Positions 2,714-24,471 of a stretch of 29,069 nucleotides of DNA are shown piece by piece. This stretch comes from a virus. The notes under the pieces were generated by a model. The model was given only the letters and a program-made list of their open reading frames with translations, did no database searches and had not been told where the DNA came from. A program made the translations under genes and the position numbers. The first letter of the stretch is position 1, and every line of letters begins with the position of its first letter. The stretch spans positions 1-29,069 of IMG/VR virus record IMGVR_UViG_3300025127_000183; one strand, 5' to 3'.

Positions 2714-2905
2714 ATGACAACAGTTACAGAATCAGGCGGTCGCCAAAACATCTACTCTATCGAGCCTAGACCACAGGTAGATCCTAATTATCAAGGCTAT
2801 CCATTAGAGGCTGAAAAAGCTAATGGTAGATGGGCAATGCTTGGTTTTATAGCTTTATTAGGTGCTTATACAACAACTGGTCAGATTATTCCTGGCATTT
2901 TCTAA
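2714..2905 (+). CDS. hli: High-light-inducible protein (first of three)
   Basis: Hli proteins are single-helix relatives of plant light-harvesting proteins that bind chlorophyll and carotenoid in the thylakoid and protect photosystems under excess light. This 63-residue copy has the family core EKANGRWAMLGF at about 33-44, followed by the hydrophobic helix and the typical C-terminus TTGQIIPGIF. Phage copies are thought to keep host photosynthesis running during infection. It is the longest of the three here, with a 30-residue soluble N-terminus, and is the first gene after the AT-rich leader. The next hli starts 18 bases downstream. Confidence 0.95.
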   Translation: MTTVTESGGRQNIYSIEPRPQVDPNYQGYPLEAEKANGRWAMLGFIALLGAYTTTGQIIPGIF

Positions 2906-2923: not shown

Positions 2924-3031
2924 ATGACTCCTGAAGCAGAAAGATTTAACGGCTGGGCAGCAATGCTTGGATTCGTAGCAGCAGTTGGTGCATATGTAAC
3001 AACTGGACAGATCATTCCTGGAATTTTCTAA
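2924..3031 (+). CDS. hli: High-light-inducible protein (second, minimal)
   Basis: This is a 35-residue minimal Hli protein, almost nothing but the pigment-binding helix: ERFNGWAAMLGF near the N-terminus and TTGQIIPGIF at the end, identical in its last ten residues to the first copy. The arginine of the usual ExxNGRxAMLG core is replaced by tryptophan, so the Glu-Arg salt bridge used for pigment binding and dimer packing in the family would be absent. Its stop overlaps the next start in TAATG, which suggests translational coupling. It is too short for many gene callers. Confidence 0.9.
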   Translation: MTPEAERFNGWAAMLGFVAAVGAYVTTGQIIPGIF

Positions 3032-3162
3032 TGAAAGAAAAGAAATTAGAACAGCAAAAAGTTATTGCAGAGACTCTTAATGGAAGACTTGCAATGCTTG
3101 GGCTGGTTGCAGCAGCAACATCTGATTTACTCACAGGACATATGTTCTTCGGCATTTTTTAA
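3031..3162 (+). CDS. hli: High-light-inducible protein (third)
   Basis: This 43-residue Hli protein has a short charged N-terminus, the core ETLNGRLAMLGL with the Glu, Asn and Arg of the pigment-binding motif intact, a hydrophobic stretch, and an ending LTGHMFFGIF related to the other two copies. It starts in the TAATG overlap with the second hli and ends in another TAATG overlap with the next micro-gene. It therefore appears to be co-translated within one mRNA. The expected location is the host thylakoid membrane. Confidence 0.9.
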   Translation: MKEKKLEQQKVIAETLNGRLAMLGLVAAATSDLLTGHMFFGIF

Positions 3163-3329
3163 TGCATGAGTTATCACAAATAAACGAAATATCACCCTTT
3201 CAAGCAATCCTATGGTGTTTTTATCCCATAGGATTTGTTGTTTTATTTGAATTAGTTTTAAGAGCTAATGATGACGATGATGATGATGAAGGTGGTGGTG
3301 TTATGACACCTGTTTATCAAGGAACCTAA
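3162..3329 (+). CDS. Acidic single-helix membrane micro-protein, 55 aa
   Basis: The ORF encodes one transmembrane helix at about residues 12-33, then a run of six aspartates with a following Glu and glycines, and a short C-terminal tail VMTPVYQGT. The helix-then-acidic-tail layout is reminiscent of small proteins in other cyanophage genomes, from memory rather than search. Function is unknown. The position directly after three hli genes, with stop-start overlaps (TAATG) on both sides, suggests a thylakoid or cell-membrane role expressed together with the Hli proteins. The overlaps and the clean reading frame are the main support for its being a real gene. Confidence 0.75.
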   Translation: MHELSQINEISPFQAILWCFYPIGFVVLFELVLRANDDDDDDEGGGVMTPVYQGT

Positions 3330-3403
3330 TGAACCATTTATTATTTACACTAATTATCGCTGCATATTTAGCTACTGATCTTAGTGCTTTCATCTATGCA
3401 TGA
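3329..3403 (+). CDS. 24-residue membrane micro-protein
   Basis: This is a very short ORF of 24 codons encoding essentially one hydrophobic helix (MNHLLFTLIIAAYLATDLSA, then four more residues). It begins in a TAATG overlap with the previous gene and ends in an ATGA overlap with the next. The size and single helix recall the tiny subunits of photosystems, cytochrome b6f or NDH-1 (for example PetN, PsaM or NdhP), but I see no sequence match that would name it. Support comes from the unbroken chain of coupled starts; as an isolated ORF it would not be credible. Confidence 0.55.
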   Translation: MNHLLFTLIIAAYLATDLSAFIYA

Positions 3404-3501
3404 AAAAAATTTTCTACAGCCCTTACTATCCACTTATTGAATTTGGATTCTTTGTCATTGTAGGCACGGTGGCAGGGTTGTATGGTTTTCTAGAAGTATA
3501 A
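3400..3501 (+). CDS. 33-residue membrane micro-protein
   Basis: This 33-residue ORF has a short basic start (MKKIFYSPYYPL) followed by one transmembrane helix to the end (about 14-31, containing FGFFVIVGTVAG). It overlaps the preceding micro-gene by four bases in an ATGA arrangement. The basic N-terminus predicts the N-terminal end in the cytoplasm or stroma-like side. The function is unknown; a small subunit or regulator of a thylakoid complex is conceivable from size and neighbours only. Confidence 0.6.
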   Translation: MKKIFYSPYYPLIEFGFFVIVGTVAGLYGFLEV

Positions 3502-3526: not shown

Positions 3527-3694
3527 TTGCAGACTTATAAATTAAAAAACTTACCTTTTTTTCAAGAGGCAAGAGCTGCTTTAGAAAATAAATGTGAGTG
3601 CCCACATTGCACTTGTGATTGCGAACACTGTAAAAATAAAATAAAACAAGCGGAAAATGCTGGAGAATACTTTAAAAAATTAACTAAAAATTGA
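3527..3694 (+). CDS. Cysteine-rich metallothionein-like small protein
   Basis: Starting at a TTG, this frame encodes 55 residues with a lysine-rich, mildly helical frame around CECPHCTCDCEHC at residues 23-35. That gives six cysteines spaced CxCxxCxCxCxxC plus two histidines. Such spacing is typical of metal-thiolate clusters (metallothionein-like) or a compact zinc knuckle; it matches no named family that I recognise. There is no ATG in the frame, which opens only at 3506, so the start is TTG or an ATT. It closes the plus-strand micro-gene run and faces the PsbN-like gene convergently. It could bind zinc or another metal, or act as a host-targeted adaptor. Confidence 0.6.
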   Translation: MQTYKLKNLPFFQEARAALENKCECPHCTCDCEHCKNKIKQAENAGEYFKKLTKN

Positions 3695-3725: not shown

Positions 3726-3754
3726 AAGATAATAATAAATCTTAAAATTTTTTT
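3726..3754 (+). terminator. Weak stem-loop with T-run after the micro-gene operon
   Basis: AAGAT (3726-3730) pairs with ATCTT (3739-3743) across an eight-base loop, followed by a seven-T run at 3748-3754. The stem is short and AT-rich, so this is at best a weak intrinsic terminator for the plus-strand genes. The T-run overlaps the stop codon of the convergent PsbN-like gene. A second small AT-rich palindrome, TTGAAA/TTTCAA, lies just upstream at 3691-3705. Confidence 0.35.
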
Positions 3755-3977
3755 AATCGTCGTGCTCATCCCAAGGATCTGTTAAATTTTTATTAGGTGG
3801 TCCAAAAGCCATGTATATTCCATAGCTTGTGACTAGAATTAATAATATAAGGATGATAGCAATTATTTGACCCTCTGGTGGCAGACCAGCATAATTTCCA
3901 TGCTTTATTAAAGGTTGTCTTTCCCAAGTACCGGGAAGTGTATATACTGATGGATTAGAAATAAAATAACTTAACAT
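3753..3977 (-). CDS. psbN: PsbN-like photosystem II assembly/repair protein with N-terminal extension
   Basis: PsbN is a small thylakoid protein needed for assembly and repair of the photosystem II reaction centre, not a stable subunit of it. The last 45 residues here fit the family: one transmembrane helix (IIAIILILLILVTSYGIYMA), then the diagnostic stretch AFGPPNKNLTDPWDEHDD, which corresponds to the AFGPPS..L.DPFE.H.D ending of cyanobacterial PsbN. PsbN is normally about 43-46 residues; this ORF has about 30 extra N-terminal residues (NPSVYTLPGTWERQPLIKHG) with no obvious helix. No internal ATG separates the two parts, so the extension is probably translated. A TATAAAAT lies upstream on the minus strand. 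The call rests on the C-terminal match. Confidence 0.75.
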   Translation of the reverse strand: MLSYFISNPSVYTLPGTWERQPLIKHGNYAGLPPEGQIIAIILILLILVTSYGIYMAFGPPNKNLTDPWDEHDD

Positions 3978-4001: not shown

Positions 4002-7000
4002 CTAACTTGCTTCTAACACTGCAACTTTGGCTGATAATTCTTTTACTGCATTTACTAATACAGGTATTAAAGATACATATTCCATAGCTAAAATATTTTT
4101 ATTTTCTGTTCCCTCTACTTCAACAGTTTCTAAAGTGTCATATACTGATTCTGGAATTATAGATTGCAGGTCCTGTGCAGAAAAACCTATTTGCTGTCTA
4201 TTAGATTCATCTTTTTTAAATGTAAATTTTATAGGTGTTATTTTATTAATTTCTGTAAGACCATAACTAACAGAACCTAAGATATTTTTAAGTCTTATAT
4301 CAGAAGTTTGTGTACCTACAACCGTTCCACCTGTACCTCCAACCGCATTAACATCATTACCTGTTCTTATCTTGGCACTATTATCTGCCCAGATATGAGA
4401 ATTACCTCCATCCCTTTGTTGTATATATAAAAAACCAGCAGGGTTATTAGTACCTACCTTTCTTGTTCCTATAAAACATTGTCTAGTAATAGCACCAACT
4501 ACGCTTCTAGCTTGAGCAGCAATATTACTTGTATCATTTCCGTGAGCAGTTTGATTAGTTACAATACCGATCATACCTTGACCACTTTGTGCTTGAAGAT
4601 AATTAGAAGTTAAAGCAGCAGCAGTATTGGGAGTGGCATTACTAGAGCCAATAGCTATTCTTCCATCAGATTTGATATGAAAACGTTCATTTGGGGCAGA
4701 GTCAGAATTTGATCCTCTTGTAGAAAATACTAAATGTCCTCTATTATCTGAAGCATCAACTTCTTCTACCTCTATCTTTGCTGCTGGATGAGTTTGAGCA
4801 GCACTAAAAACAAATCCTATTCCAAATTGATTTACATTGCTTGCATCGCCGGGGGCAGAAAGACGTATTAATTCAGTATTTGTACCATGAATGTGAACCT
4901 TTGAACCACTTGTAGAGGTTAATCCTAGAGATAATTGGCCATCAGAATCAAGCCTCATCTTTTCACTTGCATCAATCCTGAATCTCATAGATGTTGCAGC
5001 TTGCGTATTACCCTCATCTGCTGCAATAGTTAAAGCATCGGTTGAGTTTGCACCATTATTGTAAGTAAATTGTCCATAAGATTGACTAGAATCATCCAAT
5101 CTCATTGCTACATTTGAAGTACCCCTAATATGTAAATGTGAACTTGGTGTATCTTCTCCAATACCAACTCTTCCATTTGACCTGCTAACAAACAACATAG
5201 GACCGTTGCCTAAATCATTATCATCATCAATTGCAAAACCTGTTGCACTTGATGTAAGTCCACAAAACATACTACTATTATCATTTTGAAACCGTAAAAC
5301 TACATTGGCTCCACTACTTGTTCTTTGTAAGCAAGCTACAGTTGCATCTGTATCGGCAACGTGAAATCTAGCTGAAGGTGAATTTGTACCTACACCTAAA
5401 TCACCATCTGTAGTTATCCTGACATCTTCTGCTTGACCATTAGCAGACAAGACCATTGCATCATTTATTGCTGATATATGGATGCCATTTGCACCATCAC
5501 CATCCTTTATTCTTATTCTTGCAATTGAATCATCAGAAACAAAACTAGCGACAGTATCTACTGCTCCTGAATTTACAGCTAATCTATAGGCCGGAGTTGT
5601 TACACCAATACCTACCTTGCCATCTGATTGTATTCTGATTCTTTCTACAGGCACAGTTGCATTAGCAGGAGTAGTCAAAAATTGCAATCTTCCTGGACAA
5701 CTAGTAGCAGACCAAGTACCAGAAGCACCTGAATTTATAGAAGCTCCACGTTTTCCATCTTTAGAAGCAAAACTAAATTGCCCTAAAGATTCATTCTGAG
5801 TAATAGAAGTTGCAGCTTCATTTCTACACATGTAGAAAAATGGTGTAATAGCTGCTCCACCATAACTTCCAATTAATGAAAAAGTAGCGGTTGAAGCTGG
5901 GACAGCTGAAGTGTCAGAACCTAACATAGCCTGACCACCAGAAAATATTCTAAATCTTTCTGAACCAGCAGTGTCTACTGAAAATACATCGGCAGAAGGA
6001 AATCTTATTGCAGTGTCTGTATCTCCTGTATGAACAATTTTGTCTGCTATTGATAAATTTTGAAAAATTCTTACAGTTCCATCATTTTCTATTCTTAGTC
6101 TTTCAGTAGCTGATGCTGCTCCATCAGCCGTTGTACTGAATATTAAACGTCCAGGGGTATCATTAGATCCTGGAGTTCCATCTACTTCAGCTTTTATCTG
6201 TGCAACAAAACTTCCAGTATCATTACCATCATTTGCACAAAATCTAATTACTCCTATTACGTCATTTTCTTGAATTATAGTATTTCCTCCAATGGTACCT
6301 GATCTTGTTTTTCCAAACATCAAAAAAGGACTACCATTGTCATCACTACTTCTGACCAAACTGATAGTAGATGTACTGGTATTATTTCCTTCCAATTGAA
6401 CTTGAGGTGTTACACCTCCAACACCTCTATTAGCAGTTGTTCCTATGTGTATACGTCCAGCATTTTGAATCCTTAATCTTTCAGAACCATTTGTCCTAAA
6501 TTGCATCGAATTAGTTGAATGCTCATAAGTTAGTAAACCTATGTTTCCAGAATCTTGATCTCCAAACTGTATTTGACTTAAACCACCACTATGTCCGTTT
6601 AACCTTATCCTTGCGTCTTTGTTTGTACCTGTTGCTTCTACTAATAAATCAACATCTACAGTTGTACTTTTTAAATGTAATAGCTCAGTGGGAGTTGTTG
6701 TGCCAATACCTATTTTCCCATCTGATTTTATAATCATTTTTGCAGTTGGCTCTTGCGCTCCATCAGCCGTTGTAGCAAATACTAAACGACCAGGCATATC
6801 ATTACTTCCGGGTGTGCCATCCACGTTTGCTTGTATAAATGCAGCATCTGACAGTAAATCATTTCCATCTGCACCACTAAAAGATATTTTTCCTATAACA
6901 TCATTATTTTGAACAATAGTGTTCCCATTGACTGTAGAAGATCTTGATTTTCCAAACGCCAAACGAGGGCCAACACTTGAAGCTACATTTCTAACTATTG

Positions 7001-7178
7001 TTATAGCTGAACTAGCATCTGTACCTTGAACTTGTATTAACCCACCTGTGGCTTCACCGACTGGTTTAGGAGTCGAAGATCCAAAAACTGCCCGACCAGT
7101 ATTAGCTATAAAGATTGAATCATCTGCAGCATTATTTATACTTAAACCATTAACTAATTCTGCTTTTGTCTGTGACAT
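4002..7178 (-). CDS. Tail fibre with C-terminal S74 self-cleaving chaperone
   Basis: This 1058-residue protein is a trimeric receptor-binding or side fibre candidate. The body holds about nine degenerate repeats of the form ERxRI-x-SDGxIGIGTxxP (for example SDGKIGIGTTTP, SDGKVGIGVTTP), interspersed with VDGTPGSNDMPGRLVF-type and GDTDTAIRFP-type blocks. The last 100 residues (959-1058) form a peptidase S74 intramolecular chaperone: it begins SDIRLK, with Ser959 and Lys964 in the spacing of the known self-cleavage dyad, and ends in a coiled coil (LVNAVKELSAKVAVLEAS). The chaperone is expected to fold the trimer and then cleave itself off before Ser959. It shares repeat blocks with the 945-residue fibre 14 kb away. 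Upstream of the ATG is TATAA directly abutting the start. Confidence 0.9.
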   Translation of the reverse strand: MSQTKAELVNGLSINNAADDSIFIANTGRAVFGSSTPKPVGEATGGLIQVQGTDASSAITIVRNVASSVGPRLAFGKSRSSTVNGNTIVQNNDVIGKISFSGADGNDLLSDAAFIQANVDGTPGSNDMPGRLVFATTADGAQEPTAKMIIKSDGKIGIGTTTPTELLHLKSTTVDVDLLVEATGTNKDARIRLNGHSGGLSQIQFGDQDSGNIGLLTYEHSTNSMQFRTNGSERLRIQNAGRIHIGTTANRGVGGVTPQVQLEGNNTSTSTISLVRSSDDNGSPFLMFGKTRSGTIGGNTIIQENDVIGVIRFCANDGNDTGSFVAQIKAEVDGTPGSNDTPGRLIFSTTADGAASATERLRIENDGTVRIFQNLSIADKIVHTGDTDTAIRFPSADVFSVDTAGSERFRIFSGGQAMLGSDTSAVPASTATFSLIGSYGGAAITPFFYMCRNEAATSITQNESLGQFSFASKDGKRGASINSGASGTWSATSCPGRLQFLTTPANATVPVERIRIQSDGKVGIGVTTPAYRLAVNSGAVDTVASFVSDDSIARIRIKDGDGANGIHISAINDAMVLSANGQAEDVRITTDGDLGVGTNSPSARFHVADTDATVACLQRTSSGANVVLRFQNDNSSMFCGLTSSATGFAIDDDNDLGNGPMLFVSRSNGRVGIGEDTPSSHLHIRGTSNVAMRLDDSSQSYGQFTYNNGANSTDALTIAADEGNTQAATSMRFRIDASEKMRLDSDGQLSLGLTSTSGSKVHIHGTNTELIRLSAPGDASNVNQFGIGFVFSAAQTHPAAKIEVEEVDASDNRGHLVFSTRGSNSDSAPNERFHIKSDGRIAIGSSNATPNTAAALTSNYLQAQSGQGMIGIVTNQTAHGNDTSNIAAQARSVVGAITRQCFIGTRKVGTNNPAGFLYIQQRDGGNSHIWADNSAKIRTGNDVNAVGGTGGTVVGTQTSDIRLKNILGSVSYGLTEINKITPIKFTFKKDESNRQQIGFSAQDLQSIIPESVYDTLETVEVEGTENKNILAMEYVSLIPVLVNAVKELSAKVAVLEAS

Positions 7179-21633: not shown

Positions 21634-24471
21634 TTACGCAACAAGAACATTACCAGCAGCATTACCACGACCTAAGATGTAAAAAGTTAAATCTTGGTCT
21701 TCTCCTCCAGTATTATCTCCTGTGGCGACTAAGGTTGCAGTATTATTATTTTCAGTTATGGAATATGTAATATTATGAATTGAACCTCTTATTACTTTAT
21801 CGTCTTGAGCTAATGAAGCTTGTGTTATATTAGTGCCACTTCCATGAAAAGCTAAATAAACTTTTGATAACTGTGCTCCTGCTGGATTTGTATTGTCTCT
21901 TCTGAAAACCGTTATTTCAAAAGAGGAGGTTCCCCAATTATCAAACGTAAGAATATTTGTTGCAGAAGTGGACATGGTATAGGCTCTACTTAAAACAAAA
22001 GTTTTTACAGTAGCTCCAGTTCCTGTATCAGTATTTGATTGGGCTATATTTCCAGCAATATGAATTAAACAGCCCGTAATCCCAACAGTGGTTCCTATTA
22101 ATACTTTTTGGTTATCTCGAATTCTTAAGGCTTCACTACCAGCAGTTTCAACAGAAACAGTATCAACAGCAGGGAATCTTATACAAGTATCGGTATCTCC
22201 ATCATGAATTAGTTTATCCGGAAATTCCATATTACTATTATTTAATAGTGATACCGTTCCATCAGCACTTATTCTTAATCTTCCCTGTACACTAGTAGCA
22301 CCTGCGGATCTTGTTTTAAAAGTCAGACGCATTGGCATATCACCATCCGCTGGAGTTCCTTCTACTTCGCCAAGAATACTTGCACCAGTTTCATAAGAGT
22401 CGCCATCATAACCTCGCCATAAAATATCCCCAACATCATCACCATTTTGAACTATAGCTGGTGTTCCAGCACCTCTTGCTTTTTCAAATCGAATGTTAGC
22501 ATCGTTACCATTACTTACCGTAGAACGAACTGTTAAATGGTTTCCAACAGTATCTTCAATTAGTGCATCACCATGTACATGGAGAGTTTGTTCTGGAATA
22601 TTTGTAGCAATTCCAACATTTCCTGCGGATGTTATCCTCATTCTTTCAGTAATACTTCCTGAACCATCAGCAGTAGTATGAAATACTAATCTTCCTGGTG
22701 TATCGTTACCACTAGCTGTGCCATCTACTCTCGCTTCTATAGCAGCAGACTGATTAGCTAAATCCGTTCCATCATTTGCACAGAATCTTATTATTCCAAT
22801 TTGATCACCAGTCTGTACTACAGTATTACTTGAAGCTGCACCTCTATTTTTAGCAAATAAAAGATTTGCCCCACCAGTATCAGCTGAGTTTCTCCGTATT
22901 TGTATGCAACTACCAGCAGCAGTTGTTCCACCTATTTGTAATTGTGCATTTAGATTAGCAGCAGCTCTTTCAACATTATCACCAATAAGAACTCTGCTTG
23001 AAGAAGTTGCACGGAAACTTTCTGCTGCACTACCACTTCCACCTGTAAAAAATACTAATCCATCAGAATTCTGTATAATTCTGCAATCAAAATCTTCACC
23101 ACTATCAGTGGAAAAATCAATAAATGGAGTTGTACCTTTTATTTCAATTGATCCAGTATCATTTATAAGAACATGTGCTCCTGAAGAACCAGCAAGAATG
23201 TCACCTACTACACTGAGCTCTTGGAGAGGTGCTGTTGTTCCTATACCTACTCTTCCATCGCTTGTTATTCTGACTCTTTCGGTTGTATCTACAAAAAATC
23301 TTATTGCACTATTTGCAATATTATTATTAAAATCAGCATAAATGTTTAAAAACCCATCAACACTTCTTATACGAGTTGTTGTATCATCATCAGATAAATC
23401 TAAATTTGCACCATCATCTGTGCTTGTGAAATGAGCTAAAGTTTGATCAGAACTCTGTACGTCAACAGTAGCAACTGGAGCATTTTTTCCAATACCAATA
23501 CGTCCTGCAGATGATATCCTCATACGCTCTACCGTGGTAGTTGAACCATCGGAAGTCGTCATGAACAAAAGGTTTCCTGGCATATCATTTGTACCTGGAG
23601 TACCATCAACTTCAGATCTTATCTGAGCAGAATTACAAAAATTACTACCATCAAATCCACTAAATAATATTTGTCCAGTTAAATCGTCATTTTGGACAGT
23701 AGTAGGGGACGCTATAGTACCTCTAGCTTTTTGGAGAATAAATCTAGGTGGGGCATTATTATCAGATATTCTTGCAAAAGATACTGCTCCAATACTTTCA
23801 TCTTCAAGTTGTATATTTGGACTAAATGAATTAGTTCCTAAACGAGTTTGTCTATTGGAGGTCTTTCCAATCAATATACGAGCTGAACTATCGAGCCTAA
23901 GTACTTCGTTACCATTAGTTTCTGCTGAAATAGTATTGCCTTGAGGAAATCTTATTTTTGTATCAGTATCTCCATTATGAATAATGCTGTCAGTAATAAT
24001 TAAATTACCACTGGAAATAGTAATTCCATTACTGTCGAAATTACCAATCTCAGTTGAGTTAGAAACAAAACCTATACTTCCTGAACCTTTTCTGTATAGG
24101 CCGGAATCTTCATCTCCGATAAAACTAACACTGGGAGCCCCCGTAGATCCTGCAGGAAAAGTACCACCTGCATTTAGATAATCAGCAGTTGCATATATTA
24201 TTCCAAAAAAGTTTGCATTACTATCTGGAGCAGAACTAAAAACTATATTTGTTCCAACTAAATTAAAACCTTCAGCTCCGGTAGGATCAGGTCGTTGAAT
24301 AACTCCGCCTACTGATATTAAAACTTGCTGAGGTGATTTTGGAAAAGGTACTGGTGCAGAGCCTGCAACTTGTAAAGCAAAAGTTGTTTGAGAACCATTA
24401 AATCCAGACTTTATGTCATCAATTAATCTATAATCGTCAGCAGCACGAATAGTATTTCCAATATATGCCAT
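21634..24471 (-). CDS. Long tail fibre, 945 aa, without chaperone
   Basis: The N-terminal 90 residues are the MAYIG attachment module shared with the 176-residue protein. The body has about seven degenerate ERxRI-x-SxGxIGIGxxxP repeats (for example AGRIGIGKNAP, DGRVGIGTTAP, AGNVGIATNIP), three VDGTPGTNDMPGNLLF-like blocks and two GDTDTxIRFP blocks. All of these also occur in the S74 fibre 14 kb away. The C-terminal 110 residues are unlike the repeats (TFDNWGTSSFEITVFRRDN, AFHGSGTNITQASLAQDDKV) and may be the receptor-contact tip. There is no S74 chaperone, so folding help must come from elsewhere, perhaps the APC-like protein upstream. Confidence 0.85.
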   Translation of the reverse strand: MAYIGNTIRAADDYRLIDDIKSGFNGSQTTFALQVAGSAPVPFPKSPQQVLISVGGVIQRPDPTGAEGFNLVGTNIVFSSAPDSNANFFGIIYATADYLNAGGTFPAGSTGAPSVSFIGDEDSGLYRKGSGSIGFVSNSTEIGNFDSNGITISSGNLIITDSIIHNGDTDTKIRFPQGNTISAETNGNEVLRLDSSARILIGKTSNRQTRLGTNSFSPNIQLEDESIGAVSFARISDNNAPPRFILQKARGTIASPTTVQNDDLTGQILFSGFDGSNFCNSAQIRSEVDGTPGTNDMPGNLLFMTTSDGSTTTVERMRISSAGRIGIGKNAPVATVDVQSSDQTLAHFTSTDDGANLDLSDDDTTTRIRSVDGFLNIYADFNNNIANSAIRFFVDTTERVRITSDGRVGIGTTAPLQELSVVGDILAGSSGAHVLINDTGSIEIKGTTPFIDFSTDSGEDFDCRIIQNSDGLVFFTGGSGSAAESFRATSSSRVLIGDNVERAAANLNAQLQIGGTTAAGSCIQIRRNSADTGGANLLFAKNRGAASSNTVVQTGDQIGIIRFCANDGTDLANQSAAIEARVDGTASGNDTPGRLVFHTTADGSGSITERMRITSAGNVGIATNIPEQTLHVHGDALIEDTVGNHLTVRSTVSNGNDANIRFEKARGAGTPAIVQNGDDVGDILWRGYDGDSYETGASILGEVEGTPADGDMPMRLTFKTRSAGATSVQGRLRISADGTVSLLNNSNMEFPDKLIHDGDTDTCIRFPAVDTVSVETAGSEALRIRDNQKVLIGTTVGITGCLIHIAGNIAQSNTDTGTGATVKTFVLSRAYTMSTSATNILTFDNWGTSSFEITVFRRDNTNPAGAQLSKVYLAFHGSGTNITQASLAQDDKVIRGSIHNITYSITENNNTATLVATGDNTGGEDQDLTFYILGRGNAAGNVLVA

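Follow-up and report, generated by a model that had tools for sequence, protein, structure and literature searches.

The hli and psbA genes of phages are standard viral photosynthesis genes, and the small genes that lie between them are hypothetical or uncalled. Hlips, the hli products, bind chlorophyll/carotenoid and quench. Cyanophages carry photosystem and electron-transport genes, and psbN (T4-GC163) is a core gene of the T4-like phages of Prochlorococcus (PMC3037559). The closest described system is the hli03/hli04-T4-GC437 region of the T4-like phages P-SSM4, P-HM1 and P-SSM7 (Sullivan et al. 2010, PMC3037559), where hli03, hli04 and the gene for a 55-aa protein are annotated, whereas the isolate records lack an annotation for a 24-aa gene. 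For the marine S-EIV1 group (gOTU G238), hli and ptoX have been noted (PMC5332604); we found no description of the micro-ORFs or of psbN for this group in the literature searched. Literature searches on microproteins or coupling in cyanophages yielded nothing on the micro-ORF genes. Among the PHROGs, phrog_7843 and phrog_17067 hold 55-aa and 33-aa proteins, respectively, with neither a function nor a host link given, and there is no PHROG for a 24-aa protein.

We analysed a 29,069-nt stretch of viral DNA, referred to here as the window. Five ORFs at 2924-3501 form a chain with four stop-start overlaps: TAATG at 3029-3033, 3160-3164 and 3327-3331, and ATGA at 3400-3403. The first-pass annotation had described such a chain, three TAATG and one ATGA without spacer, and direct reading of the window confirmed it. 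The count of five chained ORFs stands, but the run does not start at 2924: a third hli gene ends 18 nt upstream of the 2924 ORF, making a cassette of six genes, three of them hli (Table 1). An Rfam search of the window for structured RNA gave no match.

Table 1. Genes of the cassette and other features of the window.
Feature	Position	Strand	Remarks
hli, 63 aa, AEKANGRWAM	2714..2905	+	First of the cassette; phrog_178 high light inducible protein, E=5e-26
hli, 35 aa, hli03 type, MTPEAERFNGWAAMLGF...	2924..3031	+	phrog_178, E=5.8e-20
hli, 43 aa, AETLNGRLAM	3031..3162	+	TAATG with previous stop; phrog_178, E=3.2e-16; phrog_20629, E=2.2e-15
55-aa membrane protein, T4-GC437 / phrog_7843	3162..3329	+	TAATG with previous stop; phrog_7843, E=4.5e-27
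24-aa single-helix protein MNHLLFTLIIAAYLATDLSAFIYA	3329..3403	+	TAATG with previous stop; outside profile libraries
33-aa single-helix protein MKKIFYSPYYPLIEFGFFVIVGTVAGLYGFLEV	3400..3501	+	ATGA with previous stop; phrog_17067
Small cysteine-rich ORF CECPHCTCDCEHC	3527..3694	+	After the cassette; start codon uncertain (TTG in the window)
psbN	3753..3977	-	Downstream of the cassette; PF02468, E=6.7e-16; N-terminal extension of ~30 aa
Large tail-fibre-like ORF	4002..7178		
Large tail-fibre-like ORF	21634..24471		

The three hli products are Hlips by their ExxNGR-type motif and their matches to phrog_178 (E 5e-26 to 3e-16). AExxNGRxAM is present in the 63-aa and 43-aa products, and the 35-aa product reads AERFNGWAAM, the R of NGR being replaced by W.

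The window primase is closest to that of Synechococcus phage S-EIV1 (35% over 98%, E=1e-150). A 67-kb relative of the window carries the same cassette; compared with S-EIV1, identity is 64-68% for its terminase and 52% for a second large protein of the virion region. Core-gene relatives gave no sign of a T4-like cyanophage (Kyanoviridae) origin, and as judged from these genes the window is that of a marine S-EIV1-like phage, not a T4-like one. The cassette, which T4-like phages also carry, is thus found in two unrelated phage lineages. The order hli-55aa-24aa-33aa is conserved in P-HM1, MED4-213, S-SSM4, P-SSM4 and P-SSM3, as well as in dozens of IMG/VR contigs. In T4-like phages psbA usually lies 1-3 kb downstream of the cassette, together with psbD in P-SSM4 and P-SSM3. 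The 29,069-nt window contains no psbA; a 3' piece at one end of the 67-kb relative is the only psbA piece seen in this lineage. Over positions 39-29069 the window shares primase, HNH and other genes with the freshwater S-EIV1.

Overlaps within the cassette are frequent, yet not universal. Across 71 dereplicated loci carrying the 24-aa ORF, the junction between the 55-aa and 24-aa genes is a 1-nt overlap in 37 and that between the 24-aa and 33-aa genes is ATGA in 40, the remaining junctions being other short overlaps or gaps. An hli ORF lies ≤120 nt upstream of 77 of the 114 distinct viral 55-aa copies, with a 1-nt overlap in 34 and a zero gap in 14 of these 77. Gaps of 26-67 nt also occur in the cassette.

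We assessed selection by pooled pairwise Nei-Gojobori dN/dS. The 35-aa hli gave 0.086 (111 distinct copies from the fetched loci), the 55-aa family 0.17 (helix only), the 33-aa family 0.11-0.19 depending on the length class, and the 24-aa family 0.31, as against 0.9-2.0 for the latter in shifted frames (0.9-2.6 in the shifted frames of the 24-aa and 31-aa sets together). Spacers vary, but the ORFs keep to lengths of 24 and 31-33 aa, and the frames are conserved in isolate phages and IMG/VR contigs. The ORFs of the cassette are genes under purifying selection. The micro-ORFs in particular are genes because their frames are conserved, selection is seen in frame only and the overlaps recur. The proposal of the first-pass annotation that they are real genes belonging with hli is thus borne out by conservation, dN/dS and recurring overlaps, and neither of the outcomes it had held to count against this, unconserved frames or overlaps and a lack of synonymous excess, was observed.

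The 24-aa family follows the pattern MxHxLFTxxxAxYxxxGxGxxxFA, and nearly all of the 39 aligned sequences are 24 aa long. The ORF or a diverged relative occupies the same place in P-HM1, MED4-213, P-SSM7, P-SSM4, P-SSM3, S-SSM4, P-HM2 and P-RSM6 and is found in many IMG/VR contigs; in P-TIM68 it has 26 aa. It has no family in Pfam, NCBIfam or PHROGs, and the isolate phage records examined carry no annotation of the gene. This conserved gene has only 24 codons and escapes gene callers that set a minimum length of about 30 aa. In the 201 Cyanobiaceae genomes sampled, the family was detected on one single-cell contig only, which is also an IMG/VR viral record.

The 33-aa family falls into phrog_17067, which every one of the 53 aligned members matches (best 5.8e-21), the window copy alone only weakly (E=0.0029). 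The protein is 71% identical in S-SSM4, S-SSM6b, P-SSM3, P-RSM3 and P-SSM4, where the ORF is unannotated; it is annotated in few isolates, as hypothetical in P-HM1 (GC554) and P-HM2 (GC594). EFxFF and G..AG..G are invariant within the conserved E-F-x-F-F-x-x-(V/I)-G-x-x-A-G-x-x-G. This motif would bring a glutamate close to the start of the hydrophobic stretch and line one helix face with small residues, an arrangement like that of helix-helix contacts. AlphaFold2, run on window and IMG/VR sequences, predicted one helix in each of two products: at residues 10-32 in the 33-aa protein, with a mean pLDDT of 86, and at 12-34 in the 55-aa protein, where a low-confidence acidic tail, DDDDDDEGGGVMTPVYQG, follows. 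For these two products the models agree with the single-helix membrane character that had been predicted for the micro-ORFs.

The 55-aa protein is a member of T4-GC437 / phrog_7843 (match over residues 1-54, E=4.5e-27), with a helix and then an acidic D5-6 tail. Identity to the window copy is 55-82% in most isolates and 43-46% in S-SSM4 and AG-345-D19. A D5-6 GG tail is common to 55-aa-family proteins with two unrelated helices. Since two unrelated helices carry it, the acidic tail looks modular and seems from the sequences to be the common working part of the family. The second type, with the helix LFPFMPVxxxFxxSxxMLxDLPxN and a DDDDDD-GGG tail, was observed in both phage and host (L007:2248-2430, L280, L254). 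The three micro-ORF families are without the ExxNGR motif, and against Hlips hhalign gave probabilities of 8% for the 24-aa, 1% for the 33-aa and 0.1% for the 55-aa family. Profile-profile and column-shuffle comparisons gave no support for a Hlip ancestry of the 33-aa or 55-aa proteins.

Two further small ORFs were observed in this region. The cysteine-rich ORF that follows the cassette in the window has a 37-aa relative in L315 (MQNKCECPHCKCNCEHC...), and its sequence is conserved. A micro-ORF of 28-35 aa with the motif PVPLKxVPYIF / PVPLRFVPYIF is another recurrent element of this cyanophage region and often overlaps the adjacent frames (L010:2816-2923, L009:2353-2442, L012:2404-2490, L007:2152-2247).

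Nine IMG/VR loci (L162, L163, L165, L166, L167, L168, L169, L170 and L172) have a 31-aa member of the 33-aa family immediately behind psbA: its start codon either overlaps the psbA stop (TAATG) or follows it without a gap (TAA, then ATG). The psbA call rests on Photo_RC (E=6e-88) for L162 and on the psbA C-terminus for the other eight. This adjacency is the closest genetic tie of a micro-protein to D1. Fourteen viral loci with cassette members have a motif of the plastoquinol terminal oxidase (PTOX) downstream.

Profile searches detected the 33-aa family in 62 of the 201 sampled Cyanobiaceae genomes, all putative Prochlorococcus, and in 8 of 194 genomes sampled across the cyanobacteria; these eight are again putative Prochlorococcus and are all part of the first sample. 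The 55-aa family occurs in many of the same genomes, with E down to 1e-27; tail-only matches of its profile in larger genomes (E ~1e-3) were discarded as poly-Asp. Several of the carriers are single complete contigs, and the 33-aa and 55-aa copies on them are therefore chromosomal. Some carriers are presumably SS120 (L364), MIT9312 (L280), MIT9301, NATL2A and MED4. In L364, a stretch of 1.5 kb holds hli genes, the 33-aa gene, an extra 33-aa membrane ORF and the 55-aa gene, with overlaps, and the order in L280 is hli-hli-55aa-33aa-hli. Of 40 host regions around the 33-aa gene, 10 contained Hlip ORFs and 9 the 55-aa gene, compared with 0 of 20 control regions in each case (Fisher p=0.011 and p=0.018, respectively). 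Only one host 33-aa gene in four has an Hlip gene as close as ~1.7 kb. In putative NATL2A and related genomes (L296-L300, L363, L367, L368), the 55-aa gene precedes PTOX by ~118 nt on the same strand (AOX E=1.8e-14), and in one other host genome it sits beside a peroxiredoxin gene. Yfr6 of MED4 is a 33-aa peptide-coding RNA whose partner Yfr14 is at ~628 kb (PMC2518516). We considered Yfr6 as the 33-aa gene and rejected it, as in the putative MED4 genome the 33-aa and 55-aa genes lie at 1,070.6 kb and 1,321.0 kb, respectively.

We consider it fairly probable that these genes form a translationally coupled thylakoid photoprotection cassette, in which Hlips and single-helix partners act around photosystem II. 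A polycistronic auxiliary cassette would deliver three Hlips and the 55-, 24- and 33-aa partners during infection. Ribosomes finishing one micro-ORF would re-initiate at the overlapping next start (TAATG or ATGA), and the overlaps suggest that this would keep the products in fixed proportion. The products would insert into the thylakoid, where the Hlips would bind pigment and quench and the micro-proteins may be partner helices around photosystem II that has just been made or repaired. D1 would come from a phage psbA in the same neighbourhood or elsewhere in the phage genome, and the effect would be that photosystem II is protected or rebuilt during infection in the light. We infer the thylakoid location, the photosystem II target, the photoprotective role and the co-assembly with Hlips from gene context; the first-pass annotation had offered its targets as conjecture, and the psbA-adjacent copies and the PTOX and peroxiredoxin neighbours in hosts appear to give thylakoid and photosystem II targets a better grounding. 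When MED4 was infected by P-HM2 in the light, host hli and psbA transcripts were enriched (PMC5082946). This enrichment, which concerns genes other than the micro-ORFs, fits the need for a photoprotection module. A tentative extension is that the 24-aa and 33-aa proteins might be unrecognised single-helix partners of photosystem II or Hlip complexes, the 33-aa protein an assembly or repair factor and the 24-aa protein a phage-specific thylakoid micro-protein.

Other readings of the micro-proteins have to be set against this one. The first-pass annotation likened the two smallest to known tiny subunits, and phage copies of PetN, PetL, PsaM, PsbX, NdhP, NdhQ and the like could replace those of the host; size and the single helix predicted by AlphaFold2 fit, and cyanophages do carry photosystem and electron-transport genes (PMC3037559). 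Searches of Pfam, NCBIfam and all PDB chains nevertheless showed no relation. For PetN, PetL, PsaM and PsbX there was no meaningful match: the 33-aa and 24-aa families had no Pfam or NCBIfam match at E<=10 and the 55-aa family none at E<=1. NdhP and NdhQ gave no PDB or NCBIfam match, the presence of dedicated models or chains in those libraries being unconfirmed. No micro-ORF family resembled solved photosystem, b6f or NDH subunits among the PDB chains, and the best chance matches in the PDB and profile searches were PsaL for the 24-aa (E=8.4) and PsbM for the 55-aa family (E=1.6), with none for the 33-aa family. Moreover, the 33-aa family was detected in only 8 of the 194 cyanobacterial genomes sampled, whereas the subunits named above are widespread in cyanobacteria. 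Sequence comparison thus largely refutes the equation with canonical subunits, which we regard as very improbable. We give even less credence to the ORFs being chance frames in a conserved hli-psbA leader or spacer with an RNA-level function. The region is short and precedes psbA in many phages, yet purifying selection acts in frame and is absent in shifted frames, ORF lengths (24 and 31-33 aa) are conserved but those of the spacers are not, the window has no Rfam match, and host homologues stand in other contexts.

Small single-helix phage proteins are often of the holin, exclusion or toxin type, and the micro-proteins could have an unrelated phage membrane function (holin/antiholin, superinfection exclusion, or toxin plus antidote) and merely ride in an hli operon. 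That the 24-aa protein is seen in phage sequence only and that the 55-aa family has two unrelated helices on one tail would agree with this. Against it, the 33-aa and 55-aa genes are chromosomal in many putative Prochlorococcus, some of them beside hli, PTOX or peroxiredoxin, and the 33-aa family directly adjoins psbA; we think such a function unlikely. The 24-aa protein could also be derived from an Hlip by degeneration, with the chlorophyll-binding ExxNGR gone and only the C-terminal half of the helix left, and act as a colourless Hlip partner. The gene sits within the hli run, F..AA.Y..TG of both align (hhalign P=0.004 in a single comparison, at the low probability of 8%), and a column-shuffle test gave p=0.011. 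However, short hydrophobic segments resemble one another easily, no intermediate sequence was found, and the 33-aa and 55-aa families are without such similarity, and a Hlip origin of the 24-aa protein is in our judgement doubtful.

If the tentative extension to unrecognised partners of photosystem II or Hlip complexes is true, cyanophages would deliver a stoichiometric Hlip-microprotein set, beyond D1 and Hlips alone. The 33-aa protein would be a factor shared by Prochlorococcus and its phages and coupled directly to psbA in some of the latter, and the 24-aa protein would be smaller than known photosystem subunits. Should the micro-proteins work together with Hlips or D1, phages would have a larger photoprotection module than thought, with host counterparts located next to the hli, PTOX and peroxiredoxin genes of Prochlorococcus.

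The first-pass annotation had seen a new kind of photosynthesis module here. The newness of the module as a whole does not hold, as hli03, hli04 and T4-GC437 are annotated in T4-like cyanophages and the 33-aa gene is found beside hli in some host chromosomes. Of the cassette, hli03, hli04 and T4-GC437 had been listed as cyanophage genes before, and so had the 33-aa family for two phages. To judge from the literature and annotations, novelty lies in the 24-aa family, in how widely the 33-aa family is distributed and in its direct adjacency to psbA, in the chromosomal counterparts that hosts carry next to hli, PTOX and peroxiredoxin, and in the presence of the cassette in an S-EIV1-like phage. 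The hli03/hli04-T4-GC437 region of T4-like phages has the same order and overlaps as the window, whereas the window belongs to an S-EIV1-like phage and has psbN rather than psbA as neighbour. With the marine S-EIV1-like cyanophages (gOTU G238) the window has in common an S-EIV1-type primase, HNH and other genes; the freshwater S-EIV1 genome lacks the cassette. The hli neighbourhoods of Prochlorococcus combine hli with the 33-aa and 55-aa genes, partly overlapping (L280, L364), as in the cassette. They differ from it in that the 24-aa gene was not found there and the order varies, and in some of them an extra membrane ORF of 33-34 aa, ending LWRDLSR, follows the 33-aa gene.
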